A stretch of DNA of 64,000 nt from an uncultured Armatimonadota bacterium. Its GTDB lineage: Bacteria > Armatimonadota > Fimbriimonadia > Fimbriimonadales > Fimbriimonadaceae. The stretch covers positions 1 through 64,000 of the forward strand of contig CAIUHP010000048.1 of assembly GCA_903899015.1 (NCBI GenBank), read 5' to 3'. Below the pieces are notes generated by a model that worked only from the letters and a program-made list of their open reading frames with translations, did no database searches and was not told where the DNA came from. How positions within the stretch are numbered: the first letter of the stretch is position 1; each line of letters starts with the position of its first letter. The translations under genes and the position numbers were made by a program. This document shows, one piece after another, positions 6,734-53,944 of the stretch.

Positions 6734-6766
6734 TTTTTAGCGAAACTAACTAAGCTACATTTTTAA

Positions 6767-6804
6767 GGCCCCACACAGGATGAGATCCTGTGTGGGGCCT
6801 TTTA
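6767..6804 (+). terminator. Strong intrinsic terminator after pilin 2
   Basis: Perfect 15-bp stem (6767-6781 with 6785-6799), 3-nt loop GAG, then TTTT. It lies between pilin 2 and the convergent anti-sigma gene. Confidence 0.93.
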
Positions 6805-6868
6805 CTGCGTAAACCCGCCCTCAGTACTTTGGGGAATGTTGCGCTACGATCGTATGACTCCCCATTTG

Positions 6869-7603
6869 TTAAGAATGAGCGCGGCTCTCATAGAGACTTT
6901 GAAAGGCCGCAAGAGCATTTGCATCGCAGTCTGAAACCGCAATATAGTGGAGCCCTTTTGCGTCCCAATAACGGAAGTTAAAACCATCTCGAATTGTCGA
7001 TCGATGGGTAGGAACTTGATTGTCGCGAAGCACATAAAGGCTAATAACGTGATTTCTTAAACCATAAACTAAAACCGCCGCCGGCGAACCAGAAATAAGG
7101 TCCAGTCGGCCGCCTAAAAGCGGAATCTGTTGATTTTTTAGATCAATCACCTGAGGAGCCAAAGGCACTTTGCCCGAAAACCATGGACCCACCGTATGCC
7201 GGTCACTGGAAACGACATCGACCATATGGCCAGGCATAAGTGAACGGATGTGGGATGTTAGGATCTCCGATTCAATCGTTTGTGGCCTTGGTTGAAGCAA
7301 CAAGATAGCACCCCACACGAGAGAGGCACAAATAGCTCCGCCTCCAAAACTCCAGACAGGGAAGACCCAACGCGATTTCTTTGGCGGCGTCCCGAAACTC
7401 TTTCGCATTCGGGCTTCAAATTCTGGAGAAGGCGAGAAATTTGAAGTCTTACGGATTGAGGACTTCAGAGATTGGTGAGTGGAATATTCGGTTTGACAAA
7501 GCTTACAGGTGCTAAGGTGGTTCCTGACGGCAGCTTCCTCAACTGGTCCAAGTTCACCGTCTATATAGGCATTCATGGCCTGATTTGCTTCACTACAAGT
7601 CAT
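6869..7603 (-). CDS. Membrane anti-sigma factor with zinc-finger domain
   Basis: 244 aa. The N-terminal anti-sigma domain has the zinc motif Cys3 with H29-x3-C33-x2-C36 (NHLSTCKLC). A membrane helix follows at roughly residues 80-105 (WSFGGGAICASLVWGAILLL). The rest would lie outside the cytoplasmic membrane as a sensor region of unknown fold. The gene overlaps the upstream ECF sigma gene by 4 bp, the usual arrangement for a sigma/anti-sigma pair. It is expected to sequester that sigma factor until an envelope signal arrives. The signal cannot be read from the sequence. Confidence 0.9.
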   Translation of the reverse strand: MTCSEANQAMNAYIDGELGPVEEAAVRNHLSTCKLCQTEYSTHQSLKSSIRKTSNFSPSPEFEARMRKSFGTPPKKSRWVFPVWSFGGGAICASLVWGAILLLQPRPQTIESEILTSHIRSLMPGHMVDVVSSDRHTVGPWFSGKVPLAPQVIDLKNQQIPLLGGRLDLISGSPAAVLVYGLRNHVISLYVLRDNQVPTHRSTIRDGFNFRYWDAKGLHYIAVSDCDANALAAFQSLYESRAHS

Positions 7604-18500: not shown

Positions 18501-19901
18501 CTATGGGTTGTTGATCCATTTAGCGTGACCATCAGTGTAAGCAACGGCCCTTCCCCCCGGCCCCTCAAAATAACCCAAGACCGTGGACGCTGGTTCAGCA
18601 ATCGACGACGCATTGCCTCCTGGAAACACATAGTTGAAGCCATCGTAAATGTTCGAATCCTTGATGTATGGGTTGATCGCATTTCGCCAATCACTCTTGT
18701 TTGAGACGTAGTTGTCGTTATTATCTGAGGCATGCATAAGGAGGGCGAGCGCAACTTGCTTTGCCTTGTTGAGAAGAGACCGCTTTAAGGCCGCAACCTT
18801 GGCTAGGCGATAGGCTTCGAGAGGCACCTTTGCCAAGGGCCGAACCATTGCTGTTCCTTGACTGATATAGGCAACCGCCGATTGATTGGGTGAGAGATCG
18901 CCACCTTTGCCATCGGTCGTAATGATTCCAAAGGCGTCATCCGCTGCTTTGGATGATGAAACTAGAATGGTGGGTGCCTCAACGCCAACCTTCTTGACGG
19001 CTAGGCTCCGGCTCAAATCCTGAACTTGTAGTTCATCTTCAGGCGAGAATCGTCGAACGGGCTGACCCATATTGGATGGACGGACCGTTGGCGTTACGGT
19101 GGAATTCTCCCGGTTAATATTGAACCAAGTCACTGTCGACTTATTCGCTCCTTGGGCCCGCGTCCTCATCATCGCCAGCGGCTGACCGGTGGGTGACCAC
19201 ATGAAATGGCATTGAGGGGATGGCAAGCTGATTGGTTTGGACAGCACTCCTTCAACTCCGAAAAACCTGACTGTTGAAGGAGGTTGCGTAGCATCGCTTA
19301 CTTGGTCTCTGCGGCTAAACGGATAATTGACCAACGCAACAACGGGACGAGTTGGGGATGCTTGTGCCTGAGTCGTCTCGTCGTCTTTGACGGTCGCAAT
19401 CAGTTTTGACTGACCATTTGCGTTGATCAATAAGATTTTCGAGATCGGTGTTGCTGGCTGAGTGGTATCAAGGGCGGTGACAATCATTGACGACGACCCA
19501 GCTACCCAATCTATCGAAGTGACCTGACCATCAGAGCCTTTTACCGAAAAAATCATTGTGGATTTTTCCGATTTGGAATTCCAAGTTAATACTTGAGTGA
19601 TAAGGTCTTCAGGCGAAGTAGTTGGAGTCGTTTTGGACTGGTAGGCAGCCGCTATCGACTCGGCGGTTTCGGGAGAAACAATCCTGAGGATCGCTAATTT
19701 CTCTCCGTCAGGCGACCATACCATTTGACTGATGTGAGGTCCGCAAATTGCTCTGGGAGGCAACATCAGATAAGCGTCTTTGGCGGTAGTGACGAAGTCC
19801 TTGATCGGGTCGCTTTGAGCTCCCGAAACCGTGGCTGCCAGCAAGGATGCTAAAAGAGGAATTAAGCGATTCAAATATCTCACTGATGTTCGGTTTTTCA
19901 T
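18501..19901 (-). CDS. Propeller-like secreted protein with pilin-type H-X9-DG C-terminal domain (copy B)
   Basis: 466 aa. Signal peptide MKNRTSVRYL...ATVSGAQ. The middle has repeated blocks such as ISQMVWSPDGEKLAILR that resemble TolB/WD40-type beta-propeller blades. The last 100 residues (KQVALALLMHASDNNDNYVS to GGRAVAYTDGHAKWINNP) match the C-terminal part of armatimonadete/planctomycete H-X9-DG prepilins, but there is no prepilin N-terminus. The start is ATG 19901, whose ATGA overlaps the stop of the upstream paralog. A longer start at 19916 is possible. The function is not known; a scaffold or surface role is inference. Confidence 0.75.
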   Translation of the reverse strand: MKNRTSVRYLNRLIPLLASLLAATVSGAQSDPIKDFVTTAKDAYLMLPPRAICGPHISQMVWSPDGEKLAILRIVSPETAESIAAAYQSKTTPTTSPEDLITQVLTWNSKSEKSTMIFSVKGSDGQVTSIDWVAGSSSMIVTALDTTQPATPISKILLINANGQSKLIATVKDDETTQAQASPTRPVVALVNYPFSRRDQVSDATQPPSTVRFFGVEGVLSKPISLPSPQCHFMWSPTGQPLAMMRTRAQGANKSTVTWFNINRENSTVTPTVRPSNMGQPVRRFSPEDELQVQDLSRSLAVKKVGVEAPTILVSSSKAADDAFGIITTDGKGGDLSPNQSAVAYISQGTAMVRPLAKVPLEAYRLAKVAALKRSLLNKAKQVALALLMHASDNNDNYVSNKSDWRNAINPYIKDSNIYDGFNYVFPGGNASSIAEPASTVLGYFEGPGGRAVAYTDGHAKWINNP

Positions 19902-21277
19902 GGATTGGGTACCCATTGAACGTGTCCATCTGCGTAGGCAACTGCTCTTCCGCCAGGGCCGGTTGCAAAGCCAAGTGCGGTATTTGCGGGATCGGTACCG
20001 TTTGAAAGAGTACCCCCTCCAAACGTGTATTCGAATCCGCTCATCAAATCTTTATTTCTCAAATACGGCTCGAGTTGTGCCCGCCAATCGCCCTTGTTGG
20101 AAAGAAACGCATTGTCTAAATCGGACGCGCAAATGATGAGGCCCAGAGCGACTTGTTTCGCTTTGCTCATTAATTTCGCCTTTTCTTCTTCTAGTTTTGC
20201 GAGGCGAAAGGCTTCTAGAGATATCTTGCTCATGGGACGCACCATCACCGTGCCCTGAGATTCGTAGGAAATCGCATTGAGCAGGGGGCTCAATTGACCT
20301 TTGATGCCGTCAGTCGTTGCGATCGCTATTTCTGTATCTTTAGGCTGTTTGGAACTTACGAAAACGGTCGGTGCTTCTAACCCTTGTTTTGGTCCTATCA
20401 CTTTCGATGGAAAGTTCATCACCATCAATTCTAATTCGGGAGCATCTACTGGACGAGTTGAAGAGCCCAGCGGAGCCGTGCTTGAAGTTAGTTTTCCGGT
20501 GCTTGCGCTAAGGCCATACCAAACACTCTTTCGCACTTTCGAACGAGAATCTCTCTCGAAACTTAAAACGTAAGGCAGCCCATCTGCCGCCCAAAAAAGA
20601 CTCGATTGATTTGTTGGTAATGGGCAAGGTGGGCTCAAATGGCCGTCAACTCCAAAAACTCTCAACACGGGTGCTTGTCTTTCCACGGGCGCTGAGTTTG
20701 GAGCCGCCGCGCTTGCGGCGGGATATTGAGTGATTGCGACTTGCGGGCGATAGGGATTGGGTTCGATCTGTAGTCCTGTGGTATCAGAAGAATCAAGAAC
20801 ATGGGTGACATTTCCGCTCGTTGAGACTAAGAAGATAGAAATGTGACTCATCTTGGTGTCTTCAGTTGGGTTGATCGCCGCTCGAATAACGAGTTGGGAG
20901 GAACCAGTGACCCAAGCCATTTCGTCGATTGTGCCAACCGACTGTTTGAGTCGAAACACCGTTGAAGATTTTTGTGATTTGGTGTTCCAGACTACAATTT
21001 GATCTTCCCCATCGGTCGACTCACTAGGAGTCGCGGAAATCAAGCTAGCCAAGTCAATGCTTGCTTCGTTTGAGACTTTCCGCAAAACGGCAAGATGGTT
21101 ACCGTCCGAAGACCAAATTTTCTCCGTGATGCGCGGGCCGCACACAAATTGGGGAGGCAAAAGCACATAAGCTGATTTGGGAGTCGTCACGATATCTCGC
21201 TGGGTACTCAGCTGACCAAAGATCACGATAGGACAAGCAATCAGTCCAAAAGCAAGAAGGCATCGCCTTACATTCAC
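19898..21277 (-). CDS. Propeller-like secreted protein with pilin-type H-X9-DG C-terminal domain (copy A)
   Basis: 459 aa paralog of the next gene, with signal peptide MNVRRCLLAFGLIACPIVIFGQ. Both share CGPRITEKIWSSDG near the start, a propeller-like middle, then KQVALGLIICASDLDNAF and GGRAVAYADGHVQWVPNP at the end. The tail has the AxxDGHxxW signature of H-X9-DG prepilins, but the hydrophobic prepilin helix is replaced by a long amphipathic segment rich in Lys/Glu/Ala (SLEAFRLAKLEEEKAKLMSK). The two genes are translationally coupled and arose by tandem duplication. Role unknown. Confidence 0.75.
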   Translation of the reverse strand: MNVRRCLLAFGLIACPIVIFGQLSTQRDIVTTPKSAYVLLPPQFVCGPRITEKIWSSDGNHLAVLRKVSNEASIDLASLISATPSESTDGEDQIVVWNTKSQKSSTVFRLKQSVGTIDEMAWVTGSSQLVIRAAINPTEDTKMSHISIFLVSTSGNVTHVLDSSDTTGLQIEPNPYRPQVAITQYPAASAAAPNSAPVERQAPVLRVFGVDGHLSPPCPLPTNQSSLFWAADGLPYVLSFERDSRSKVRKSVWYGLSASTGKLTSSTAPLGSSTRPVDAPELELMVMNFPSKVIGPKQGLEAPTVFVSSKQPKDTEIAIATTDGIKGQLSPLLNAISYESQGTVMVRPMSKISLEAFRLAKLEEEKAKLMSKAKQVALGLIICASDLDNAFLSNKGDWRAQLEPYLRNKDLMSGFEYTFGGGTLSNGTDPANTALGFATGPGGRAVAYADGHVQWVPNP

Positions 21278-21355: not shown

Positions 21356-21835
21356 CTATTCCACGCTCGACGGGGCGTCGGCCACCCAGAGACCATCGTA
21401 GTCTTCGGGATCGTCAACCAATTCAAGGTTCACGGGAGCTTCAAAGAGTTCCTGCCAGCGTTCTTCAAGTTCCGCCTCGTCGCGCAGAATTCGATCAAAG
21501 CTTTCGTTGTAAAACGGGCTAAATCGCTCCCCTGTCTTTTTGATGATTGCTTTTCCAGACTTTGTTTTCGCCTTCTCAACGATTTCTGACAATTCATACG
21601 GACCACTTCGTGGTGATTCTTTAACCCGAAAGATCAAGTCTGTTTTTTCTGGAAGGACACATACAATCAGGAGATCCCATCTCAACCCATCGGGCTTGAT
21701 GAGTTGTCTGAGTAGTAAGTTGCGCTCAGTTGCGTCTAAAGGCCGTCGGTATCGGAATGTGACAAAGTAGGTTACGTCACTTGCTCGCCAATGAGGCAAC
21801 CTACCTCTCCAAATGCTGAAATTCTTGAATGCCAT
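21356..21835 (-). CDS. REP-associated tyrosine transposase-like protein with degraded active site
   Basis: 159 aa, related to the Y1/IS200-like RAYT family. The family signatures LPHWRASDVTYFVTFRYRRPL near the start and NESFDRILRDEAELEERW near the end are clear. The HUH metal site, normally like PNHVH, reads PEKTD here (residues about 62-66). Both histidines are gone and DNA cleavage is unlikely. The frame is otherwise intact. I see no flanking inverted repeats or REP palindromes. It may be a domesticated DNA-binding protein or a decaying copy. Confidence 0.75.
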   Translation of the reverse strand: MAFKNFSIWRGRLPHWRASDVTYFVTFRYRRPLDATERNLLLRQLIKPDGLRWDLLIVCVLPEKTDLIFRVKESPRSGPYELSEIVEKAKTKSGKAIIKKTGERFSPFYNESFDRILRDEAELEERWQELFEAPVNLELVDDPEDYDGLWVADAPSSVE

Positions 21836-29217: not shown

Positions 29218-30783
29218 ATGTCACCGATAATCCTAGATGAAACAGCTCGAATGGTAGATGGATTTGAATTCATCGACCTAAGCGAAACCAAACCTGATCC
29301 GGTGGCAATGGATTTTGCGCCTGGTGATTTTGCACTGAAGCATAGTGTTTTGCCCTTGGCCCTTGATGGAGAAACGCTCATTGTTGCCATGTCGGCTCCC
29401 GAAGCACTGCAGTCGGTTGACGATCTCGGAATCTTAATTAATCGTCACGTCCGTGCGGTACTAGCGGATAAGAATCTCATCGAAGAGCGGATCAAGGATT
29501 TCTTCCTTGAGAGAATGCTCACGGGTATGGCGGTCGACGAAAGTTCTGTCATCGAGATTGACGAAACGACCGACTTAAACGACTTAACCAAGATGGCCAG
29601 CGAAACGGCCATCGTTCAAATGGTGAACGGTATCTTTGCTCAAGCGGTTCGAGACGGAGCGAGCGATATCCACATTGAGCCTTACGAAAAAGATGTGAAG
29701 GTCCGATGCCGTGTGGATGGCATGTTGAGCGACCTCATGCGCCCGCCCAAGAGAATGCATGCTGCGCTCATTTCGCGCATCAAGATTCTTGGTGAAATGA
29801 ACATCGCGGAAAGGCGATTGCCTCAAGACGGTCGCATTAAGATCACGATCGCCAACCGACAAATCGACGTTCGTGTTTCCATTGTTCCTACCGTATACGG
29901 AGAGCGCGCGGTTATGCGTATTCTCGACAAAGGCACGGCCATGCTCGGTCTTGTTGAGTTGGGAATGCAGAACGATGTTCTTGAAAAATTCCGCAAAGTC
30001 ATCTCGCTTCCCCACGGAATTATTCTTGCGACAGGACCGACCGGTTCCGGTAAATCCACTTCACTCTATGCTTCCCTGCAAGAAATTTGGTCGCCAACTA
30101 CGAACATCCTGACTATTGAAGATCCGGTTGAGTACCAGGTTCCTGGAATCAGCCAGATTCAAGTTCGAGCAAACATCGGCTTAACCTTTGCATCTGGTTT
30201 ACGTTCGATAGTTCGTCAGGACCCTGACGTCATCATGGTTGGTGAAATTCGTGACCATGAAACTGCTGAAATCGCGATCCACGCAGCGTTGACCGGTCAC
30301 CTTGTTTTCTCCACGCTCCATACCAACGATGCGGCTGGTGCGATCACTCGACTCCTCGATATGGGTGTAGAGCCATATTTGGTTGCATCTTCCCTGGTCG
30401 GAGTCATCGCACAGCGACTTGTTCGTCGAGTCTGTACGAACTGCGGAGAGGAATATCAACCCAGTCCCGAATCGCTCAAGGCAATCGGAATTACCGATTA
30501 TGAGATTTCTCAACATGGAGGAGCTTCGTTCAAGAAGGGTAAAGGTTGCGATAAGTGCCAAGGCTCCGGCTACAAAGGACGCCAAGGCCTCTACGAACTA
30601 TTGACAGTTGATGAACCGATTCGACGTATGACGGTTGAAAGAGCATCTTCGGGAGTCATGAAGGCCCACGCGATTCAAGGTCAAGGAATGCGGACACTTC
30701 TTGGCGATGGACGCAAGATGGTTTTGACAGGGCGAACGACTCCAGAAGAAGTTCTCCGAGTCTCGCAGCGAGAAGACTTCTAA
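29218..30783 (+). CDS. gspE: Type II secretion / type IV pilus assembly ATPase GspE/PilB
   Basis: 521-aa hexameric ATPase that drives pseudopilus or pilus extension from the cytoplasm. The N-terminal GspE-N region comes first. The motor domain then carries Walker A GPTGSGKST (about residue 273), Asp box IEDPVEYQ, Walker B VGEIRDHETAEIA and His box TGHLVFSTLHTND. A zinc tetracysteine CTNCGEE...CDKCQGSGYKGRQG is present, which favours GspE/PilB over PilT. First gene of an 11-gene operon. Start ATG 29218. Confidence 0.95.
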   Translation: MSPIILDETARMVDGFEFIDLSETKPDPVAMDFAPGDFALKHSVLPLALDGETLIVAMSAPEALQSVDDLGILINRHVRAVLADKNLIEERIKDFFLERMLTGMAVDESSVIEIDETTDLNDLTKMASETAIVQMVNGIFAQAVRDGASDIHIEPYEKDVKVRCRVDGMLSDLMRPPKRMHAALISRIKILGEMNIAERRLPQDGRIKITIANRQIDVRVSIVPTVYGERAVMRILDKGTAMLGLVELGMQNDVLEKFRKVISLPHGIILATGPTGSGKSTSLYASLQEIWSPTTNILTIEDPVEYQVPGISQIQVRANIGLTFASGLRSIVRQDPDVIMVGEIRDHETAEIAIHAALTGHLVFSTLHTNDAAGAITRLLDMGVEPYLVASSLVGVIAQRLVRRVCTNCGEEYQPSPESLKAIGITDYEISQHGGASFKKGKGCDKCQGSGYKGRQGLYELLTVDEPIRRMTVERASSGVMKAHAIQGQGMRTLLGDGRKMVLTGRTTPEEVLRVSQREDF

Positions 30784-30799
30784 GGAAAGTTAAAAGAAC

Positions 30800-32017
30800 G
30801 TGACTACTTACGCCTATACCGCCTTAGATCCCGCTGGAAAGAAGCGGACTGGATTTGTGGACGCGGCATCGAAAGATGCAGCGGTCGCCATCATAACTGC
30901 TGAGGGACGATTTGTTGTTGATATCCGCGAACAAGCAGTTCAGAAGGGTACATCGAGCCACGATACGGCCAAAAGAAAAGGCAAAGCGAGCAAAAGTGAC
31001 CTTTCACTATTTAGTCGACGATTGGCCGATCTCGCTTTAGCAGGCTTACCCCTCGACCGTGTCTTGCAGGTTGTTGCTGAGCAGTCAGAAAGTGCGGCGC
31101 TCGCAAATGTTGCGGAGCAAGCCCTGGAAGAGGTTCGGGGAGGCAAGCCCGTGAGCGAAGCGCTCGCGATGCACCCCAAACTCTTCCCTCCCGTTTTTTG
31201 TCAGACGCTTCGTGCTGGTGAAGCTAGCGGACAATTCGGTGAAGTTGCGCAGCGACTAGCCGACTTTCAAGAGCGCGAAGTAACGCGACGCAGCCAAGTC
31301 GTTTCAGCGTTGATCTATCCGGTCATCTTGGCGACAACCGCAATTGGGGTTGTTGTGTTCTTGCTAACCTTTGTCGTGCCAAAGCTATCAGGCGTTTTTC
31401 ACGATTTGGGAAACGATCTGCCTTCATCGACAAAGCTACTGCTCGCGACGTCTGACTTCATTCAGAACAACTATTTGATGATCATCGCAGCGATCATCGG
31501 TCTAATCGTTGCTTACCGAGCTTGGGCGTCTACCCCATCGGGTGCGTTGCAACGAGACACTCTTTTGTTGAAAGCACCTGTTTTAGGGCCCGTTATCACC
31601 AAGGCGACCGTTTCAAGATTTGCCCGAGTATTGGGAACGCTCCTTTATGGTGGTGTCCCGATTTTGGAAGCGCTCCAGTTGTCAGGTTTGGCTGCTGGCA
31701 ATCTGTTGTTCCAGAAGAGCGCTGATTCGGTGACGCACGACGTGCGAGACGGACATCCCATCGCCGAAGCGATGAGAGACGCCGGAGCCTTTCCGCCTGT
31801 TTTGACTCACATGGTAGCCATTGGTGAGGAAACGGGTGACTTGCCGAAGATGCTCGGTCGAGTGTCGGACAGCTTAGATTTTGAAGTCGACAATGGTATG
31901 AGACGTCTAACCGCCATGGTTGAACCGATCATCGTCTTAGCAATGGGCGTCATCGTCGGCTTCGTGGTTTTATCGGTACTGTTGCCCATCTTCCAAGCTG
32001 AGAACTTGGTTAAGTAA
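30800..32017 (+). CDS. gspF: Type II secretion inner-membrane platform protein GspF
   Basis: 405 aa. Two GspF cytoplasmic domains (about residues 70-195 and 275-395) each precede membrane helices, in the standard four-helix-bundle layout: FSRRLADLALAGLPLDRVLQ for the first and FARVLGTLLYGGVPILEALQLSG for the second. Length is normal. Start GTG 30800, 16 bp after gspE, with AAGGAAAG upstream. It should form the platform on which the GspE motor works. Confidence 0.95.
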   Translation: MTTYAYTALDPAGKKRTGFVDAASKDAAVAIITAEGRFVVDIREQAVQKGTSSHDTAKRKGKASKSDLSLFSRRLADLALAGLPLDRVLQVVAEQSESAALANVAEQALEEVRGGKPVSEALAMHPKLFPPVFCQTLRAGEASGQFGEVAQRLADFQEREVTRRSQVVSALIYPVILATTAIGVVVFLLTFVVPKLSGVFHDLGNDLPSSTKLLLATSDFIQNNYLMIIAAIIGLIVAYRAWASTPSGALQRDTLLLKAPVLGPVITKATVSRFARVLGTLLYGGVPILEALQLSGLAAGNLLFQKSADSVTHDVRDGHPIAEAMRDAGAFPPVLTHMVAIGEETGDLPKMLGRVSDSLDFEVDNGMRRLTAMVEPIIVLAMGVIVGFVVLSVLLPIFQAENLVK

Positions 32018-32097
32018 CAGGATAGGAAAAGTTTGGGACTGAGTAACGGGAGTTTATGAAAGAGATGGAATCGAAGTCGAAACTCCGATGGAGGAAT

Positions 32098-32520
32098 ATG
32101 AACAAGAGAAATAGAGCGTTTACGTTGATCGAGTTAATGGTCGTCATTTTGATTTTGGCCATTCTCGCGGCCTTGATCGTTCCCAACGTCCTTGGGCGAA
32201 CTGGTCAGGCAAAAGTATCAAAGGCACAGGCTGACCTATCGGTTCTAAGCAGTGCGATTGATCAATTTCGACTCGACTGTGACCGATATCCAACTACACA
32301 AGAGGGCTTGGGTGCTCTCAACACTCAGCCGAGTGGTGTGAATGGATGGCGCGGTCCATACCTAAAGCAGCAGGTTGTGAACGATCCTTGGGGAAATCCT
32401 TACATCTATGAGGCCCCAGGACCCAACGGTGGTGGATACCAGGTTGAGTCTTATGGTTCAGACGGAGCTCCCGGCGGAACGAACGATGCGACAGACCTTA
32501 CGAATGGATCAGACACATAG
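32098..32520 (+). CDS. gspG: Major pseudopilin GspG
   Basis: 140 aa from ATG 32098 (GGAGG 3 nt upstream); an in-frame ATG at 32056 gives 14 more residues. Leader MNKRNRA then FTLIELMVVILILAIL, with Glu5 kept. The residue before the cleavage point is Ala rather than the usual Gly. The globular domain is classic GspG: DCDRYPTTQEGLGAL, WRGPYLK, DPWGNPYIYEAPG and SYGSDGAPGG, whose last segments form the calcium-binding loop. It should be the main shaft subunit of the pseudopilus. It overlaps gspH by 17 bp. Confidence 0.94.
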   Translation: MNKRNRAFTLIELMVVILILAILAALIVPNVLGRTGQAKVSKAQADLSVLSSAIDQFRLDCDRYPTTQEGLGALNTQPSGVNGWRGPYLKQQVVNDPWGNPYIYEAPGPNGGGYQVESYGSDGAPGGTNDATDLTNGSDT

Positions 32521-33151
32521 ACGAAAAGGTTACACGCTCATCGAAATGATGGTGATCGTGGTGCTACTCGCTCTGTTCTCTGCATTGATTGCTCCGAACT
32601 ACATCTCGATGCGGGACGGCCAACAAAGACGCGCGCTCTATACAGGAGTTGCCGACCTTGTTGGCTCGGCCCGAGAGATGGCGATATCGAAGAGCACTAC
32701 GATGTATCTACAGATCGATGCGAACTCAAACGCCCTCGTCTTGAAGCAGGAAGACGACGCTAGCACGTACCAAAACACATCAACCGGAACCGGCACAACA
32801 AGTGACACTTTAGTGATAAATGGTCACGTTCAAAGTGCTCGGACGAAGACGAATATCGGAACTCAATCCCTCGACCATAGCAACGACAAAACCGTGAAGA
32901 CCCTACCATTAACCGCAGGAGTACAGTTTGGAAATTTCCAACTCGCTGGCACTTCCTCTGACTCCGGTAGTTGGAAGTTGCATTTCTATGCGGATGGAAC
33001 AACGGATGGCGGTGGTTTGGAATTGGTAGATCGCGGAATTACCAAGTCGGTGGTCGTGAATACCAAAGGTGGAGCTTCGCTCACTGATGGCACGCTTCCC
33101 GATACTTCTCAGGATGGATGGGTGGCAGGAGACTATGTCCATCGCCAATAG
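32504..33151 (+). CDS. gspH: Minor pseudopilin GspH-like
   Basis: 215 aa from ATG 32504 (leader MDQTHRRKG, then YTLIEMMVIVVLLALFSALIAPNY). Prepilin cleavage after Gly with Tyr at +1 and Glu5 kept. The globular part contains RRALYTGVADLVGSAREMAI, the usual start of a GspH/FimT domain, and a Ser/Thr-rich loop. The assigned letter rests on position and this domain; it could be named a FimT-like minor pilin. It overlaps gspG and gspI. Confidence 0.82.
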   Translation: MDQTHRRKGYTLIEMMVIVVLLALFSALIAPNYISMRDGQQRRALYTGVADLVGSAREMAISKSTTMYLQIDANSNALVLKQEDDASTYQNTSTGTGTTSDTLVINGHVQSARTKTNIGTQSLDHSNDKTVKTLPLTAGVQFGNFQLAGTSSDSGSWKLHFYADGTTDGGGLELVDRGITKSVVVNTKGGASLTDGTLPDTSQDGWVAGDYVHRQ

Positions 33152-33563
33152 AAAGCGATTACGAATTCGGGGATTTTCGCTGGTCGAAGCTATTGCCTCG
33201 ATCGGAATCCTGTCGATCGGAATTGTTGCGGTGATGGGAGGCCTGGGTGCAATGGCCCGTGCTGAGTCTCGAATTCGACAGGTCGAGAAGATGACCTCAC
33301 TTGCTCAGCACAAATACGACGAACTCGTTGCTACGAGTGCAAGCTTAACGGGAAACCAAAGTGGCGATTTCAGCGACCAAAACCTTCAAAACTTCAATTG
33401 GTCCGCGACGATTGACCAAACAGGAGTCACCAACCTCGTCGCTTTAACGGTGACAGTGACTTCCTCGTCCGATTCAAGTGCGAGTAGCCCCACGGGCCAT
33501 GTGAGCGGTCTTCTTTATCAACCGCCGACGACGAGCACAACCACGGCAGGAGGCGGCCAGTGA
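33135..33563 (+). CDS. gspI: Minor pseudopilin GspI-like
   Basis: 142 aa from ATG 33135 (MSIANRKRLRIRG, then FSLVEAIASIGILSIGIVAVMGGL). Glu5 is present. The helix and the following RAESRIRQVEKMTSLAQHKYDELVA fit GspI/PilV-type minor pseudopilins. The C-terminus is low-complexity Thr/Ser/Gly (TTSTTTAGGGQ). It overlaps gspH by 17 bp and gspJ by 4 bp. Expected to join the I-J-K tip complex. Confidence 0.82.
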   Translation: MSIANRKRLRIRGFSLVEAIASIGILSIGIVAVMGGLGAMARAESRIRQVEKMTSLAQHKYDELVATSASLTGNQSGDFSDQNLQNFNWSATIDQTGVTNLVALTVTVTSSSDSSASSPTGHVSGLLYQPPTTSTTTAGGGQ

Positions 33564-34384
33564 AGAACCATCGAGGATTCACTTTGCTCGAGCTGCTGAT
33601 CAGTGTAACGATCATGGTTGCAGTGCTCCTCGGTTGTGTGGAAGTGCTTAGCATTGGTATCGGTTTTAACGAGCACCTCCGAACCGGTCGCACGACCGAA
33701 ACGAATCGTCAGCAATTTGAAGAAAAGCTGACCGATTTAATTCATCGCATCTATATCGATCCGAACAGTAACACGAGCGCCCGAACTTACTTTGTGGGCC
33801 AGACTGGGATGGGAATGCCAGTTGGACAAACTGTTCAGCCCGGACAAACAATCAGCGCGACGGCCGCCAACAACACTGGAACCCGAGTTGGTGGCGCAAC
33901 TGGAGCGCCAGCGGGAGCTAGTAGTTCTAGCGGCAACTCGGACTCGCTACTGTTCACGACGATTGGAAGAAAACCATCTGCTGCGGCGCTGGCGTCCACG
34001 GATGATTTCGAAACCAACAACCAGAATTTTGGACCTCAAGGTGGAGTTGCCGAATGCAGCCTAAGTTTGAGTCCAGTTGGAGACTCCAAAGGCAAACAGG
34101 GACTTGTTTATCGTCAGCAGTTACCTGCGGACGAAGATGCCACTCAGGGTGGCTACGAGTCCATCATCGAGCCAGATATTACTCATATCACCTTCGAGTT
34201 CTTTGATGGCACGACTTGGCAAACAGGTTGGAACACATTTAATCAGACGACGCGTCAACTGCCGAATGCGATCCGTGTGACCTATGGTCTGACCAACGAA
34301 TCAGTCGACTACGTATTGATCATCGGCGTCTGGCTTAGCAACGTAACGCCACAGAGTCCGGCAACTCAAACGGGGGCAAGTTAA
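33560..34384 (+). CDS. gspJ: Minor pseudopilin GspJ-like
   Basis: 274 aa from GTG 33560 (GTGA overlap with gspI). Very short leader MKNHRG, then FTLLELLISVTIMVAVLLGC. The globular part has a Gly/Ala/Ser-rich loop in the middle and ends with ITHITFEFFDGTTWQTGW and LPNAIRVTYGL, which are characteristic of GspJ. It is 60-70 residues longer than typical, mostly owing to the low-complexity loop. It forms the tip with GspI and GspK. Confidence 0.86.
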   Translation: MKNHRGFTLLELLISVTIMVAVLLGCVEVLSIGIGFNEHLRTGRTTETNRQQFEEKLTDLIHRIYIDPNSNTSARTYFVGQTGMGMPVGQTVQPGQTISATAANNTGTRVGGATGAPAGASSSSGNSDSLLFTTIGRKPSAAALASTDDFETNNQNFGPQGGVAECSLSLSPVGDSKGKQGLVYRQQLPADEDATQGGYESIIEPDITHITFEFFDGTTWQTGWNTFNQTTRQLPNAIRVTYGLTNESVDYVLIIGVWLSNVTPQSPATQTGAS

Positions 34385-35692
34385 ATGAGAAGAGAACGCG
34401 GAACCGCATTTGTTGTGTCTCTTGCCGTCTTGGCCGCCCTGGTAGGTGTGATGGCGGCGGTAGCCTCGACGACACGCTTGGACATTAAGTCGGCTGTAAA
34501 TCGCAATGAAGTGATGAAGGCTCGAATGGCATGCAATAGTGCCATCCAGCGATACATTGCAACCGTTGCGGCTGACTACACCGGTGGCGCAACGACCACG
34601 TCGACCACGACTTCGACAACGAGTCAGCAAACCGGAGCAACGACACTTCAAGATGACTGGGCTCAGCTCGGTCAAAATGGGGACGAAAAGGTCACGGTTG
34701 GGGACACATGGTTCCGAATGCAGGTCGTGGATTCAAGCGCGTATATCAACACCGCAAACCTGAATCAGGCTTGGTTGAATAACCTGCCGGTGTCTCAGGA
34801 GCAAATTGACGCTTACTTGGATTACACATCCGCCGGAGAAACGCCACGTCCGGACGGCGGTAAAGATCAGTATTACAACGCGCTTCAAGTTCCCTACAAC
34901 GCAAAGCTTGCGCCACTGGACACGCTCGACGAACTTCTGAATATTCGATATTTCACTGCTCAATCGATTTGGCAGCCTCAAACAAATGTTGTATCGACGG
35001 TTTCTTTTGTAGCGGGAACAAATGGACAGCAGCCATCGCTAGCCGATCTCTTGACGACTTACTCGTATGCGCCAAATGTAAGACCTGGAGCTTTGGGTCA
35101 GCAACAGCCAAGGATCAATATCGCTAACGCGAATCAAGCCCAGGTTCGAGCACTCGGACTCTCTGCTCGAACCGTTAGCATTCTCTTTCCTAACCCTCCG
35201 GCTAGGCGCCCAACGTTTACGACGCTAGGCGCACTACTTCGAGTCGTAACCAACCCTCAAGATCAAAGGATTATTCTTGACAACTTCACAACTTCTGGGG
35301 CAACCAAGAGGCCGGGGCTCATCAATTTGAATACCGCATCACAAAACGTGTTGGCGACGATTCCAAACCTGACCCCAGACATGGTTCAAGCCATCATTCA
35401 GCAACAACAGCAAGGACTTACGAGCCTTTCTGGAGTGCTTAGCATTCCGGGATTCACTGGTAATGTCCTCGCTAATACTATCGACAACTTTACGGTTGAG
35501 TCTTCGACCTTCAACATTCGAGTCATAGGCTATTGCGGTTCCGCTTCAGTAGCAATGGAGGCGACGGTCGACATTATCAACAACAAACCGCAACTCGTTC
35601 GCATCTCAGAGGTTCCTTACACGGACGTAATTGGGAGATGGAATTGGAACGCAGATACATCAACTGAAACAGTACTTAAGGAGGCTTCGTGA
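34385..35692 (+). CDS. gspK: Minor pseudopilin GspK-like
   Basis: 435 aa. Leader MRRERG then TAFVVSLAVLAALVGVMAAV; Glu5 is absent, as expected for GspK tip subunits. The large globular region contains helix-hairpin-helix-like SAM-domain blocks (INLNTASQNVLATIPNLTPDMVQAI), typical of GspK. A Thr-rich stretch (TTTSTTTSTTS) is near residue 65. It starts immediately after the gspJ stop and overlaps the next gene by 4 bp. Confidence 0.88.
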   Translation: MRRERGTAFVVSLAVLAALVGVMAAVASTTRLDIKSAVNRNEVMKARMACNSAIQRYIATVAADYTGGATTTSTTTSTTSQQTGATTLQDDWAQLGQNGDEKVTVGDTWFRMQVVDSSAYINTANLNQAWLNNLPVSQEQIDAYLDYTSAGETPRPDGGKDQYYNALQVPYNAKLAPLDTLDELLNIRYFTAQSIWQPQTNVVSTVSFVAGTNGQQPSLADLLTTYSYAPNVRPGALGQQQPRINIANANQAQVRALGLSARTVSILFPNPPARRPTFTTLGALLRVVTNPQDQRIILDNFTTSGATKRPGLINLNTASQNVLATIPNLTPDMVQAIIQQQQQGLTSLSGVLSIPGFTGNVLANTIDNFTVESSTFNIRVIGYCGSASVAMEATVDIINNKPQLVRISEVPYTDVIGRWNWNADTSTETVLKEAS

Positions 35693-36966
35693 GCAAGGGC
35701 AACCCCAAGGCAGCAAACCTAGTCATTGAGTGGTCGCCCCGAGGTGTTACAACCTTCGATGGTGCCACCCGAACCACCCGGCAATTCGATACGATTCAGG
35801 CCGCTGCATCGAGCTTAGGTTCAAAGACCGCAATCGTTGCAATCTCGCGACGCATGATGTTTGTTCGAACCACACGCGTACCAGATGCTGCCATCTCGGA
35901 TGTACGCTTGGTTTTGAGCATGCGGTTAGGAGACCTCTTCCCTCTCCCACCTAGCGACTTAGCTTACGATTTTGTCCTCACTGACAATGTTGATTCAGAA
36001 GGACGTTTGGCGATCGTTACCGCAATGTCAGCTCAGGACCTGCGGAATATGCAGGAGGAGTTCCGCTCCGCTGGCATTAAAGTCGCTCAAGTTCTTCCTG
36101 TTGCGATGGGATCGGTCTTATTGGCCGAATCAGTCGGACGGACGAGTGGCGCGGTAGTGACCCGAGACAACGATGGAATCGGTATTGATATCGTTGAAGG
36201 ACATTCACTTCGTTACAGCCGAGTTAGCACGAATATCTCGAACCCGTCGGCAGAAGTTTGCCGGACTTATACTGTAGCTGGACTCCCATGTGGAGACATG
36301 ATTGCGGCAGGCGGGTTCACCTTTGCGGATGCGGATATCAATACTAAGGGCACGAGCCTCGAGTCCTTCCTCACGTCATCCAGTGATATTCCTGCCATCA
36401 ATATCGAGCTGCCGGAAGTTGTGGCGCTCAGGGCCAAGAAGGTTCGTGACCAGCGCCAGCGTATGGCAGTCGTCTTGATGATTGGAGCTTTAGGCCTCTG
36501 TGCAGTTGCCTACACCGGTTACATGTCCAAAGTCGCGGTCGTAAACGCGGCCGATCAAAAAACACAGAAAGATATTAAGGCGCTGGATGCACGTAAGAAG
36601 GCTACTCAAACAAAGGCAGCCAATCTCACGGACGCTCAGACCGCGCTTGATATCGCGTTTAAATACGGCCAGAACTATTCCGATCTAGTAACAGTAGTTG
36701 CCAACGATGTGCCGTCTGGAGTTTGGTTAGGCGGAATAAGTGTTGAACGCGGTAAACGAATGGTTCTTCGAGGCGTTGCCTTCAACAATGGCCAGGTTAA
36801 AGATTTCGTAGATAAGCTCTCTTCTGAACCTAGATTCCGCAATGTCCGGTTAGAGTTTGCTAACGACGGTTCCATTGACCTAAAGCCCGTAGTACAGTTC
36901 AGCATATCGGCATTTCCAGTAGGAAATGTTCCACTAGTCGACTTGAATCAGGTGAAGCGCAAATGA
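35689..36966 (+). CDS. gspL: GspL-like protein (PilM-type actin fold plus PilN-like segment)
   Basis: 425 aa from GTG 35689. Residues 1 to about 245 look like the PilM/GspL actin-like domain (AIVAISRRMMFVRTTRVPDA, SMRLGDLFPLPPSDLAYDFVL). One membrane helix follows (MAVVLMIGALGLCAVAYTGYM), then a coiled segment and a ferredoxin-like periplasmic domain (VPSGVWLGGISVERGKRMVLRG). It thus unites PilM and PilN roles in one chain, as GspL does. It should link the GspE motor to the periplasmic parts. Confidence 0.82.
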   Translation: MSKGNPKAANLVIEWSPRGVTTFDGATRTTRQFDTIQAAASSLGSKTAIVAISRRMMFVRTTRVPDAAISDVRLVLSMRLGDLFPLPPSDLAYDFVLTDNVDSEGRLAIVTAMSAQDLRNMQEEFRSAGIKVAQVLPVAMGSVLLAESVGRTSGAVVTRDNDGIGIDIVEGHSLRYSRVSTNISNPSAEVCRTYTVAGLPCGDMIAAGGFTFADADINTKGTSLESFLTSSSDIPAINIELPEVVALRAKKVRDQRQRMAVVLMIGALGLCAVAYTGYMSKVAVVNAADQKTQKDIKALDARKKATQTKAANLTDAQTALDIAFKYGQNYSDLVTVVANDVPSGVWLGGISVERGKRMVLRGVAFNNGQVKDFVDKLSSEPRFRNVRLEFANDGSIDLKPVVQFSISAFPVGNVPLVDLNQVKRK

Positions 36967-37571
36967 TTAATCTAAAGGACCAAGACGATCGATCATCTAG
37001 CATGGTTATGATTGGTTCGGTAGTGCTCATGGTTTGCGCAGGTCTGTTCATCGCTTTTGCGCCGGCGCCAATACCGAATCAAACAGCCGATCAAGTTCGC
37101 AAGACTAAAACGAAGGCCAACATCGAGATCAAGGATGCCCTCAAAAAGATCGATGTTGCGAAAGGTGTAATTGCTAGTCAAACGTGGCCAGGAACAGCCG
37201 AGGAAGTACTTCCCCTAGCTCTGCAAAAAGTGACATCGATGGCTCAGGCGCATCACCTGAAAATCGTTGGATTTCACCCGCAGAATGTGATCGTTGCTCC
37301 GAATATTTCGTTAATCCCTTGTGTGGTTAACGTGGATGGCCCGTTTGTAAATGTGGTTGCTTTTCAGAAGGACATCGAGTCGCCAGGTACGAACCTCGCA
37401 GTCAACCTTATGCAGTATGCGACGGCTGATCAGGAGTCAAACAAGATTACGGCAAGTATCGGCATCATCGCTTATCAACCGGTGAAAGATGCTCCGGCGG
37501 AGTCAACTACTCAACCTAAATCAGGAACAACGCCTGCTAAGCCAGCCGTGGGAGCGAAAAAGAGTGCCTAA
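36963..37571 (+). CDS. GspM/PilO-like assembly protein
   Basis: 202 aa. One N-terminal membrane helix (MVMIGSVVLMVCAGLFIAFA), a helical linker and a ferredoxin-like periplasmic part (VTSMAQAHHLKIVGFHPQNV, PCVVNVDGPFVNVVAFQKDIES). Assignment rests on position after the GspL-like gene and on this layout; sequence similarity to GspM or PilO is weak by eye. A Pro/Lys-rich tail ends it. It overlaps the previous gene by 4 bp and the next by 8 bp. Confidence 0.72.
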   Translation: MINLKDQDDRSSSMVMIGSVVLMVCAGLFIAFAPAPIPNQTADQVRKTKTKANIEIKDALKKIDVAKGVIASQTWPGTAEEVLPLALQKVTSMAQAHHLKIVGFHPQNVIVAPNISLIPCVVNVDGPFVNVVAFQKDIESPGTNLAVNLMQYATADQESNKITASIGIIAYQPVKDAPAESTTQPKSGTTPAKPAVGAKKSA

Positions 37572-38286
37572 GATCTTTGGAAAAGAAGTTCATCCGATGT
37601 TGTTGCTTGGTGCGGCCGGAGTTGCGCTCTATCTGGTCATGGGTGCGTTACAGGGCCCTGAGCCGATTGCGCAAAAACCCAAGAAGCCACCTGTTGCGGC
37701 CAAAAAGACCACCGATGTCGATTACACGAAGGAAGACTACACCGCTCAGTTCGCTTCCCTTCCCCATGGTAGTCCTAAAGATGCCTTTCGACCGTTGATT
37801 ATGAAATCGACGAGCGGTCCGGGAGCAAACCCGAGCATTGACAACTTTACTTACAGCGGAATGGCGTTGCTCAACAACGAGCCCAACGGTCTCCTTGAAA
37901 ACAGTACGACCGGCGAAGGGGACTTCGTCAAGCCGGGCCAGCGATGGCATCAACAATGGCTGGTTGTTTCTGTTTCACCAGAACAGATCGACCTTAGAAA
38001 TGATGTCGGTGAAGATACGGTTCTCAAAGTGGGTTCGAGCACTTCCGGTAGCTCGAATTCATCGGCTGCACCTGCGGCGGCGGGACCAACACCCAATGGC
38101 CCATTTAACCCGGCGGCAATGACGGGGCCAATTGGAGCACAAGATTTATCAATACAACCCGATCCAACTGGAGCCACGATGATGGGCGGCGGTAACGGAC
38201 GCACACGAGGCGGCGGACGCGGAAGAAATGGTGGTGGACGTCGCGGTGGCGGAAATGGAACTGGAGGAACGACTGATGGAAATTAA
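37564..38286 (+). CDS. GspC/PilP-like protein with Gly/Arg-rich tail
   Basis: 240 aa from GTG 37564. One membrane helix near the start (MLLLGAAGVALYLVMGAL), a Pro/Lys linker, then a small beta domain (FTYSGMALLNNEPNGLLENS, WLVVSVSPEQIDLRND) like the homology region of GspC/PilP, which contacts the secretin. The last about 35 residues are almost only Gly, Arg and Asn (GGGRGRNGGGRRGGG). The gene sits directly before the secretin gene and overlaps it by 11 bp, consistent with a secretin partner. Confidence 0.72.
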   Translation: MPKIFGKEVHPMLLLGAAGVALYLVMGALQGPEPIAQKPKKPPVAAKKTTDVDYTKEDYTAQFASLPHGSPKDAFRPLIMKSTSGPGANPSIDNFTYSGMALLNNEPNGLLENSTTGEGDFVKPGQRWHQQWLVVSVSPEQIDLRNDVGEDTVLKVGSSTSGSSNSSAAPAAAGPTPNGPFNPAAMTGPIGAQDLSIQPDPTGATMMGGGNGRTRGGGRGRNGGGRRGGGNGTGGTTDGN

Positions 38287-40777
38287 GAGATCATGGATGT
38301 GTATGGCAATGCTGCTCCCCGGACTAGCATTCGGCCAATTCTTTACTGGTAGCGGAGTCGATTCTCCTAATTCCATACGACCTTGGATGGATTTCAAGCT
38401 CAATACGAAGACGAAAATTAAGCTTGACTTCCGTGATGCAAACGTTGACAGCATTATTGGTCTCTACGAAAAGGCGTCCGGAGTCACGATTGTAAAAGAT
38501 CCAACTCTTACCGGAAAGATCACGATCACGAGTGCCAAGCCCGTAACCTTGAATGATGCATTCGCGATTCTTAAGGCGAACCTCGATTTAAAGGGTTTCG
38601 ATATTACTAAGGATGGCAACTTCCTGGTTATCAAGAATCGAACACAAGGTGGTCCTGGTGGCGGACGCAACGGTGGGGGAATAGATTTCTCATCCATGAT
38701 GGGCGGCGGCGCTGGTGGCGATCAGGGCAACAACGTCAACCTGAAGGTCTATCCAATCAACTTCGCAAACGCGGCTCAGCTTGCAAAGGTCGTAAACGAC
38801 GTTTACTCAGGCAATTCGCTAAGCCCCTTCGGTGGCGGCGGCAATCCCTTTGGTGGTGGAGGACGATTCGGTGGCGGTGGCGGTGGGGGGCAGTTCGGTG
38901 GCCGAGGCGGAGCTGCTCAGTTTGGCGGCAACAACAACACGGCCAACATGATGCGCCAGATGTTTGGAGGCGGCCAAAACCAACCGGTCGTGAAAGCATC
39001 GTCGGACGACTATACGAACTCCGTCATTATCAGCGCCACCGACAAAGATCAGCGCCAGGTGGGAGACTTAATTAAGCAGCTCGACAAGAACTCCGAAGAG
39101 CCGCTGAAGCCTCATGTCTTTGCTCTCAAATATGCGTCTGTGAACGACGTTCAGCCAGTTGTGCTCAACGTTCTCCAGACGAATGCGCCTAAGGGCAAAT
39201 TTGGCTCAGGACCACAGTCTCTGCAGTCAACATTCCAGAACGCACTTCGAATTGGTACGGGGCAAGCTGCTTCGGGACCCGTTGTATCGGATTTGCGAAC
39301 GAACTCTCTTGTCGTCACGACCACGCCGGCAAACCTCCAAATCGTTGATAAGCTGATTAGCACTTTAGACCAGCCAGTTGTTTTCCAAAGCACGACACTT
39401 GTTGTTCCTCTTGAAAACGCCCGCGCAGATACGGTTGCTAACCTTTTCTTGCAAGCATTTGGCCAAAGGCAAGGAACGACGACTTCCGCAGCTAATCGCA
39501 ATACATTCAGTGGAGCGAATACAAGTAGCAACTCTTCGGTAAATGGCCGAACAACTGGTGCCGGTGGTGCTGGCGGCGCTGCACGTCCAGGTGGAGACAT
39601 TGGAGTAGGTGATAACGGATTGGCGCAAAACGCGCTACCGATTAACCTCCAAGATCCAAATGCTGGAAGTGGGGACTTGCTCACATCCATTGGAGTCGTC
39701 CAAGGATTTGGCGGCGGCGGCGGCGGTGGTCGAGGCGGCTTCGGTGGTGCTTTCGGTGGAGGCGGTGGTGCCCAAGCTGGTACCCAAAACTCAGTAACTC
39801 AAACCCGAGACGCTTCAGGTCAGATCGTCAACCTTCGAGATTTGACTGGAAACGTAACCGTGATTCCGAATATGGATTCGAACTCGCTCATCGTGGTAAC
39901 CACTCCCGAAAATCGAGAGATCATTCAGAACATCCTCAAGCAACTTGATAAAGTTCCTCAGCAAGTCATGATCCAAACGATCATTGTTGAGGCGACCATC
40001 GGAAAAGCTGAGCAGTTCGGTCTTGAGTGGAAGTACTCGCACCAGAAAGGCAAGACGACGAACACGGGTGGCGACACGTTCGGGCTCGCTGGAGCAAATC
40101 CAGCGTTGCAAGGCTTTACGTACACCTTGACCGGCGGAGACGTGACCGGCTTCTTCAACATGCTGCAGACGGATACGAAGTTTCAAGTTCTCTCAACCCC
40201 GAGGATCTTTACTTCGAACAACACTCAAGCTCAAATCAATATCAGTCAGAGCATTCCGTACATTGTTAGCACCATTCAGAACACGAACGGGACCAACAGC
40301 TTCAACTATGCCTTCCAAGACGTCGGTATCGTTCTGACGGTAACTCCCCGAATTACAAGCAACGGCTACGTAAACATGGATGTAACCCAGACGGCCAATG
40401 ACCTCCAGGGCTACACCAACTTTAATGCTCCGATCGTGAACCAGAGACAGGCTGATACGACGGTTTCAGTGAAGGACGGAGAAACAATTGTTCTTGGTGG
40501 CATTATGCAGAGCCAAGTTACCGCGACGGTGAACAAGATTCCTCTGTTAGGAGATATTCCTCTCTTGGGTGAACTGTTCAAGTCCAAAACGAAGAACGTT
40601 TCGAAGACTGAGCTTCTCGTATTCCTAACGCCAACCGTTATTCGAGATCCAGCCGAGGCAAAGAAGCTCAAAGAACAGACTCAGAAAGAAATGAGCTCAA
40701 CCACTCAAGACGATTTCAATAATTTACAACCAAAGAAGGGTGGTGCAAATCCACCGGTCAAGAAAGGAGGCAATTAG
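38276..40777 (+). CDS. gspD: Type II secretion system secretin GspD
   Basis: 833 aa from ATG 38276, with GGAGG 8 nt upstream and a signal peptide (MLLPGLAFGQ). N-terminal STN/N0 domain (IKLDFRDANVDSIIGLYEK), three N-type domains, and the C-terminal secretin domain with VTPRITSNGYVNMDV, KDGETIVLGGIMQSQ and PLLGDIPLLGELFKS. Long glycine-rich runs interrupt the N domains near residues 125-235 and 480-500, unusual for GspD. It forms the outer-membrane channel. I see no lipobox and no pilotin gene nearby. Confidence 0.95.
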   Translation: MEIKRSWMCMAMLLPGLAFGQFFTGSGVDSPNSIRPWMDFKLNTKTKIKLDFRDANVDSIIGLYEKASGVTIVKDPTLTGKITITSAKPVTLNDAFAILKANLDLKGFDITKDGNFLVIKNRTQGGPGGGRNGGGIDFSSMMGGGAGGDQGNNVNLKVYPINFANAAQLAKVVNDVYSGNSLSPFGGGGNPFGGGGRFGGGGGGGQFGGRGGAAQFGGNNNTANMMRQMFGGGQNQPVVKASSDDYTNSVIISATDKDQRQVGDLIKQLDKNSEEPLKPHVFALKYASVNDVQPVVLNVLQTNAPKGKFGSGPQSLQSTFQNALRIGTGQAASGPVVSDLRTNSLVVTTTPANLQIVDKLISTLDQPVVFQSTTLVVPLENARADTVANLFLQAFGQRQGTTTSAANRNTFSGANTSSNSSVNGRTTGAGGAGGAARPGGDIGVGDNGLAQNALPINLQDPNAGSGDLLTSIGVVQGFGGGGGGGRGGFGGAFGGGGGAQAGTQNSVTQTRDASGQIVNLRDLTGNVTVIPNMDSNSLIVVTTPENREIIQNILKQLDKVPQQVMIQTIIVEATIGKAEQFGLEWKYSHQKGKTTNTGGDTFGLAGANPALQGFTYTLTGGDVTGFFNMLQTDTKFQVLSTPRIFTSNNTQAQINISQSIPYIVSTIQNTNGTNSFNYAFQDVGIVLTVTPRITSNGYVNMDVTQTANDLQGYTNFNAPIVNQRQADTTVSVKDGETIVLGGIMQSQVTATVNKIPLLGDIPLLGELFKSKTKNVSKTELLVFLTPTVIRDPAEAKKLKEQTQKEMSSTTQDDFNNLQPKKGGANPPVKKGGN

Positions 40778-52984: not shown

Positions 52985-53944
52985 TTAGTTGCCGCAGTTA
53001 GGGTGAGCACCCTCAACGTCGGTTGACCAGTAGCAGATGTTGCCAACGGTAGCGTGCCAGTCGAGGTTCTTCGCGTGGCCGTCAACCCATTGAACATTCA
53101 GCTTGCCATTGTGTCGCTTCTGAATGAGAGTCGTTGCCGATGGAAGGAAGCTGCTGTAGCTCTGACCAGACTGAGTCCAGTTTGAACCACCTTGGTTCAT
53201 CCAATATCCAACGTAGTTGGAGTTTTGGTTCGTCACGTAAGCTAGCTCATTTCCGTTGAGGTTAGCCGTGATTTGAACACCCGAGTCGTTGCTCGCTGAA
53301 ATGTCAGGACCTGCACCATAGTAGCTGGCGTCGATGATCATGATCGTGCCTGCAACACGTGGAACGGATGTGAGTGTTGGAGGTGAAGGAAGGTTCGCTG
53401 AGCCACCGCTTGTGTTTGCGCCTGGGCTGAGCCAGAAGTCGTTGTGACCGTAGCTGTTCTGTCCACCGTAGTTGTTGCCAGCTTTAGCACCGTTGGCATT
53501 TTGGAAGCCAACCGCGGTTCCGCTACCTGGATAGAATGGACTTGTTGTGTCTGGATCCTTGTATAGGTTGAAGTTCTTTGTATATGGGTAGAGCGTATAA
53601 GCCCAGTAGAGTCTCTGGTTGACTGCGCTTCCTACTCCACCGGCCTGGTCAGGAGCGGTTGAGTTCAAGTTGCCGTTTCCGTCGAGGTACTCGGAGCATG
53701 TCTGAACTGCTGAGTAGTTGTTGGCTGCGTTTCCACCGCAGTTCCATCGGTGAGCGTATAGGGCGTCGTCTGCATCACCGGCATACATAATGGATGCTAG
53801 TCCAAGCTGCTTGAGGTTGTTCAAGCAGGATGTTTTCTTAGCTGCTTCTTTGGCCTGTGCGAAGACTGGGAACAAGATCGCTGCGAGGATCGCGATAATT
53901 GCGATAACCACAAGAAGTTCAATAAGGGTAAAGGCTTTTTTCAT
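52985..53944 (-). CDS. H-X9-DG type prepilin
   Basis: 319 aa from ATG 53944, with the very short leader MKKA, then [20 protein letters not shown] and the phylum-typical [16 protein letters not shown] plus [20 protein letters not shown]. Ala stands at -1 of the cleavage site. The C-terminal signature is [17 protein letters not shown]. The middle is rich in Asn/Gly/Tyr, as for a surface-exposed pilin. It is a single gene with a dedicated upstream region that contains phased repeats and a palindrome. Its tail is related to that of the two propeller-like proteins at 18.5-21.3 kb. Confidence 0.94.

Follow-up and report, generated by a model that had tools for sequence, protein, structure and literature searches.

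PilY1 is soluble, carries a type I signal peptide as well as a beta-propeller, and acts in complex with minor pilins (PMC7541494). In modular pilins, a pilin module presents effector domains (PMC8179133). The census of such proteins searched through the N-terminal pilin motif (PMC8179133), so headless pilin heads would escape it by design. The genome of F. ginsengisoli holds 79 COG2165 pseudopilin genes, only 65 of them with the N-terminal motif, and its published account leaves the genes without the motif undescribed (PMC4072686).

The window analysed here is the whole 64,000-nucleotide stretch from an uncultured Armatimonadota bacterium. Two paralogous genes within it encode P0001 and P0002, each of which joins a signal-peptide-like start and a beta-propeller to a headless H-X9-DG pilin module (Table 1). 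With the PilC/PilY1 tip adhesin the pair shares predicted solubility, a type I-like signal peptide, a beta-propeller, the division into one conserved and one variable part, and a proposed pilin partner. In the pair, however, the conserved part is the pilin head and the variable part is the propeller, and there is no minor-pilin gene cluster. PF05567 (PilY1) gave no match in P0001 or P0002 at E 10. A search of 61 genomes with the same profile returned none either, an absence that is not usable because the controls matched nowhere.

The modular type IV pilins, such as S. sanguinis PilB (PMC8179133), likewise fuse a pilin module to a bulky functional module, but in the pair the order is reversed, with the pilin part C-terminal, the signal peptide is type I-like, and alpha1N is absent. 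Neither protein thus has the N-terminal pilin module, class III peptide and extra C-terminal domain that define the PilB type. Judged by their sequences, P0001 and P0002 are not pilins, because they lack the defining class III signal peptide. The earlier note knew of no described family with this layout, and searches of Pfam, NCBIfam, PHROGs and the literature are consistent with that. In the open-access literature, from which many journals are missing, no description of the layout was found; H-X9-DG appeared only in an unrelated context and DUF1559 only in planctomycete work. As far as we found, the parts are known, while their combination, its conservation across the phylum and the spread of the module to other carriers are undescribed.

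Table 1. Features of the locus and comparators, in window coordinates
Feature	Position	Strand	Description and basis
P0002, upstream paralog	19898..21277	minus	459 aa, GTG start; signal peptide, beta-propeller and headless pilin module
P0001, downstream paralog	18501..19901	minus	466 aa from likely ATG; same three parts as P0002
Putative signal peptide of P0002	21215..21277	minus	residues 1-21, MNVRRCLLAFGLIACPIVIFG followed by Q; by inspection of sequence
Putative signal peptide of P0001	19818..19901	minus	MKNRTSVRYLNRLIPLLASLLAATVSGA followed by Q; by inspection of sequence
Predicted beta-propeller of P0002	20219..21181	minus	residues 33-353; AlphaFold2 model and structure matches
Predicted beta-propeller of P0001	18822..19784	minus	alignment to P0002; family alignment
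Headless H-X9-DG pilin module of P0002	19901..20218	minus	residues 354-459; hhalign, model, solved matches
Headless H-X9-DG pilin module of P0001	18504..18821	minus	own-genome module search, E 4.8e-45; alignment
Type II secretion-like operon	29218..40777	plus	Pfam; about 8 kb from the pair
Ordinary H-X9-DG prepilin P0003 (comparator)	52985..53944	minus	319 aa; N_methyl, DUF1559 and H-X9-DG end

Architecture of the propeller-pilin pair

Both reading frames are real on the minus strand and encode, as the earlier note had proposed, a paralog pair with signal-peptide-like starts; pairwise alignment gives 39% identity across 439 residues, end to end. The open reading frame list places P0001 at 18501-19916 (471 aa). 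Translation most likely begins at the ATG at 19901, which forms an ATGA overlap with the stop codon of P0002, and because of this overlap the two genes are probably cotranscribed. Signal-peptide-like N-termini recur across the family and end mostly in ..AQ or ..GQ, which would fit cleavage by signal peptidase I. The LIAC segment in the P0002 signal peptide also resembles a lipobox; it is not conserved in the family.

The AlphaFold2 model of P0002, built from 38 family members (mean pLDDT 89.2, pTM 0.82), and its structure matches indicate that the middle region is a ring of six or seven four-stranded blades. Of 981 aligned chains, 798 reached Z >= 8, hundreds of propellers among them. The best match was the S9-peptidase propeller 4hxg_F (Z 14.0, rmsd 6.0 A, 237 residues), and a sequence profile of the region reached the TolB (E 7e-6) and DPPIV (E 7.5e-5) propellers. 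The WSPDG-type repeats reported earlier are present but few: each protein has one clear copy and a second, weak one. TolB and DPPIV-type proteins thus have the fold and weak profile similarity in common with the pair, whereas P0001 and P0002 have no TolB N-terminal domain, peptidase domain or enzyme-like conserved polar cluster. An enzymatic propeller was considered and rejected, since no polar cluster is conserved: within that stretch only S56, G59, G212, Y338, G342 and R347 are conserved at 75% or more.

The pilin module of each protein comprises about 105 residues. In the P0002 model, the last propeller strand (343-353) leads directly into a 33-residue helix, alpha1C (354-386); short helices come next, and then a small antiparallel sheet ending AVAYADGHVQW. 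The predicted structure has alpha1C packed on an antiparallel beta-sheet, the arrangement by which pilin heads are recognised. Profile comparison gives the clearest sign of homology. In a single hhalign comparison, the module profile matched 26 aligned N_methyl/H-X9-DG pilins of this genome and its relatives with 99.6% probability (E 1.4e-23); four of these pilins had first been found using P0002, and the others were mostly TIGR04294 hits or their flanks. Each half of the module matches on its own, the N-terminal half at 1e-19 and the C-terminal half at 4e-6, while the propeller, used as a control, reached 0.3%. The resemblance of the C-terminus to the globular end of H-X9-DG prepilins, first read from the letters, is thereby borne out, far beyond chance, against H-X9-DG pilins of the own genome.

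Homology begins at about pilin residue 24 (VFAQAK), just behind the hydrophobic alpha1N, which means that only alpha1N is lost and alpha1C is kept. The prepilin helix that the earlier note took to be missing is therefore only partly gone: the charged helix that it saw in its place is the retained alpha1C. The stretches of the module homologous to H-X9-DG prepilins and DUF1559 proteins (TIGR04294, PF07596) are alpha1C, the PYxKN region and the last strand, with its DGH; the class III signal peptide, alpha1N and the long variable insert between the halves, all found in those prepilins, are absent from the module. The signature histidine is missing as well: a His ten residues before the Asp of DG occurs in none of 57 family members, against 16 of 38 pilins.

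Standard family models score the module under their cut-offs. For TIGR04294, P0002 reaches 13.1 bits against a cut-off of 19 and P0001 has no listed match; at E <= 0.1 that model matches 10 of 35 family members. PF07596 (DUF1559 / SBP_bac_10) stays below its gathering cut-off; two of 35 members match it, at E 0.076 for the best. P0001 and P0002 gave neither a class III signal peptide nor an N_methyl match, whereas the pilin P0003 in the same window has N_methyl, and no Pfam, NCBIfam or PHROGs entry matched either paralog above cut-off.

Structural comparison is supporting evidence here, and the profile homology is the main evidence, because Foldseek with the module alone returned no match, pilin or other, at E <= 0.001; pilins rose to the top only after VIA re-ranking. 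Folded alone, the module reached a pLDDT of 92.3. Its four best solved matches by VIA were Thermus PilA4 (6xxd; Z 7.8, 3.8 A, 96 aligned), PulG (1t92; Z 6.3, 2.9 A, 81 aligned), GspG (3g20; Z 6.0, 4.9 A, 89 aligned) and PilA5 (8qqj; Z 5.7, 3.0 A, 79 aligned), and the next was a non-pilin at Z 3.6. Searched by sequence against solved structures, the module gave a best E of 0.39, with the type IV pilin 8pfb third (E 1.2). The Foldseek result and the middling Z scores of 6-8 leave some room for a chance likeness, with the C-terminus being one more blade of the propeller or a helix-sheet domain of unrelated origin. That reading is very improbable, since the homology seen by sequence profile does not depend on the fold match, a 33-residue helix is no blade, and the four top matches are all pilins, well above the next. 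The earlier note had named a blade-only C-terminus or the lack of any pilin match as outcomes that would overturn its proposal; neither appeared in the models or matches. The profile comparison, the two AlphaFold models and the structure matches together uphold its picture of a soluble propeller joined to a pilin fold without the polymerising helix.

Distribution, constraint and a candidate docking role

A single-sequence search at E <= 1e-3 found matches in 49 of 61 relatives, the weakest of which were pilins. Set beside profile searches, which add divergent members, it places the family in about 49 of the 61. With the family profile, at least eleven Armatimonadota families yielded hits of E 1e-25 or better that were long or spanned the full length; the overall tally of 270 of 291 also counts many hits to pilins alone. 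Tandem arrays of two to four copies are common. All 28 loci from public genomes belong to Armatimonadota or to metagenome-assembled genomes of that kind, except one record labelled archaeal, and a search of viral contigs found no relative. In a tree on 80 columns, trusted only for this one grouping, the propeller-linked modules form a single clade (support 97). These sequence comparisons show a phylum-wide family with, by the tree, a single fusion origin.

The record labelled archaeal is JADZEW010000028.1 (L084, 'Methanoregulaceae archaeon isolate SJ84'). Its gene order around the family is that of the Fimbriimonadaceae locus L081, so the label of the record or bin is probably wrong.

The pilin head is the most strongly constrained part of the protein, and the propeller changes fast. 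Mean pairwise identity within the family is 42% for the module and 17% for the propeller, and dN for module versus propeller was 0.10 versus 0.18, 0.11 versus 0.67 and 0.18 versus 0.39 in three pairs, two of them with saturated dS. This pattern bears on whether the module is a relic without function, the remains of a pseudogenised pilin joined to a propeller. Broken copies do lie nearby in some relatives (the L069 frame at 6488, and frames with internal stops), but module dN is well below dS where dS can be estimated, which excludes the two saturated pairs of the three, residues are invariant across the family, and frames are open in most of the phylum. The relic reading is scarcely credible as a whole, and for intact copies it is refuted by purifying selection on the module.

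Copies with internal stops occur among those of some relatives. In L069, a shortened, internally deleted copy (6489-6878) lies directly upstream of an intact one and is a case of gene birth and death in tandem arrays.

With alpha1N missing, P0001 and P0002 should be unable to polymerise as pilus subunits. The preferred reading, drawn by analogy and given a probability of about 40%, is that they are soluble, PilY1-like accessories of type IV or type II filaments, in which the head docks and the propeller displays. After export via the Sec-type signal peptide, the conserved head would dock on the tip or side of H-X9-DG pilins or pseudopilins, or on their assembly complex; the partner would most simply be the pilins or pseudopilins that the head resembles. 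The fast-changing propeller would serve as the variable element and bind an external ligand or surface, and tandem paralogs could offer alternative propellers on the same dock. The idea of a constant dock and a variable display comes from the higher identity of the module and its lower dN in all three pairs.

The earlier note had proposed from the sequence that the module might bind the pilus, cap it or act as its adhesin, and such a role would fit both this pattern and the PilY1 parallel. Two further observations speak for docking: H-X9-DG pilins are present in all 61 relatives, and filament machinery is found in the own genome and in the window. Against it, linkage to pilus genes is not conserved, and 12 of the 61 relatives have H-X9-DG pilins and lack the family, so the family is not needed for these pilins.

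Gene neighbourhood and other carriers of the module

Family genes are surrounded by unrelated housekeeping genes that differ by lineage; examples named by eye include kdsB/relA, leuD with DUF192, and aroF. The neighbourhood was therefore rejected as a clue to function. The type II secretion-like operon of the window encodes T2SSE, T2SSF, two N_methyl pseudopilins, T2SSK (the pseudopilins lie at 32408-34384), PilN-like and PilO-like proteins (the latter below cut-off) and a secretin. In the own genome (G000), G004 and G013, about 18-20 kb separate the secretin from the pair; in most other relatives the secretin is far away or on other contigs. A general linkage to this operon was rejected, as it is real only in these three close genomes. 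In G041, a family gene and a pilQ-like secretin are about 6 kb apart, separated by unrelated genes.

The nearby operon raises the possibility that the module is an export address: the pair would be type II secretion substrates, with the propeller as cargo and a head that the pseudopilus or the secretin reads. The module does resemble the major pseudopilins PulG and GspG, type II substrates are thought to touch the pseudopilus tip (PMC7541494), and the operon stays linked in two close relatives. More distant relatives have not kept the linkage, however, and the module also occurs on integral membrane M56 proteins, which are not secreted. An export address is accordingly unlikely.

A search of the own genome with the module returned 66 matches, mostly pilins. 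One of the others (C106, L155:1089-2693) is a BlaR1-type M56 protease (Peptidase_M56, E 6.4e-37) with a headless module at its C-terminus, after the last membrane segment; its gene lies downstream of a frame that by eye encodes a BlaI-like repressor. The M56-module fusion recurs in seven relatives (G013, G005, G004, G025, G036, G010 and G007). These BlaR1-type regulators thus share the headless module with the pair but differ in carrier, and in the 80-column tree their modules branch apart from those linked to propellers. A third layout, in Fimbriimonadia (L172, L173, L176, L177 and L180), combines a signal peptide, an unnamed domain and a headless module with a longer tail ending LKLKR..KPLP. 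At C66 (L154:1078-2912), next to rpsF/ssb-like genes, the own genome also encodes three tandem proteins of about 190-210 aa, each with one N-terminal membrane helix, a degenerate or absent class III motif, and then an H-X9-DG head. Its H-X9-DG/N_methyl pilin genes number about 50-60 and are scattered; their alpha1N is nearly identical and the remainder very different.

Because it also occurs on M56 proteases, in the third layout and in the C66 relatives, the headless head behaves as a portable module. Its place at the end of BlaR1-type M56 proteases counts against docking and suggests a generic periplasmic role. The head could be a domain for binding or sensing outside the cytoplasm, independent of any pilus, that was exapted from pilins and has been shuffled among several carriers; in that case the propeller protein would bind ligands in the periplasm or at the surface and have nothing to do with filaments. 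The protease gene behind a BlaI-like frame, kept in seven relatives, favours this, as do the third architecture and the housekeeping neighbours. Yet the M56-linked modules sit on another branch and need not share a function with those of the pair, and a sensor of pilin state would remain pilus-related. The neighbours, the pilin-bearing relatives without the family and the M56 fusions all weaken the pilus proposal. Docking stays the likeliest role, and on account of the M56 fusions a pilus-independent binding or sensing role is almost as likely.

More doubtful is a broader version, in which polymerisation-dead pilin heads, on secreted propellers, BlaR1-type proteases and further carriers, would serve Armatimonadota as a portable docking or sensing domain, through which accessories, and also a regulator that works by proteolysis, could recognise or monitor the cell's own many H-X9-DG pilins. 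A natural soluble pilin head on a carrier provides a single-protein handle on what the abundant H-X9-DG heads bind. If the pilus link is true, the pair adds to PilY1 and the modular pilins another means of fixing an effector to a type IV filament; if it is false, a pilin head has become a general extracytoplasmic domain.

Beside the pair, the frame at 21356-21835 (minus strand) encodes a protein of 159 aa whose sequence resembles a REP-associated (RAYT) transposase, with DVTYFVTFR near its start. It has no Pfam match, and its HUH motif seems lost, with LPEKTDLIF where MPNHVH is expected. Relatives of this protein precede family genes in L067 and L068 and lie near one in L091, and because they recur beside family genes the protein may have been domesticated.
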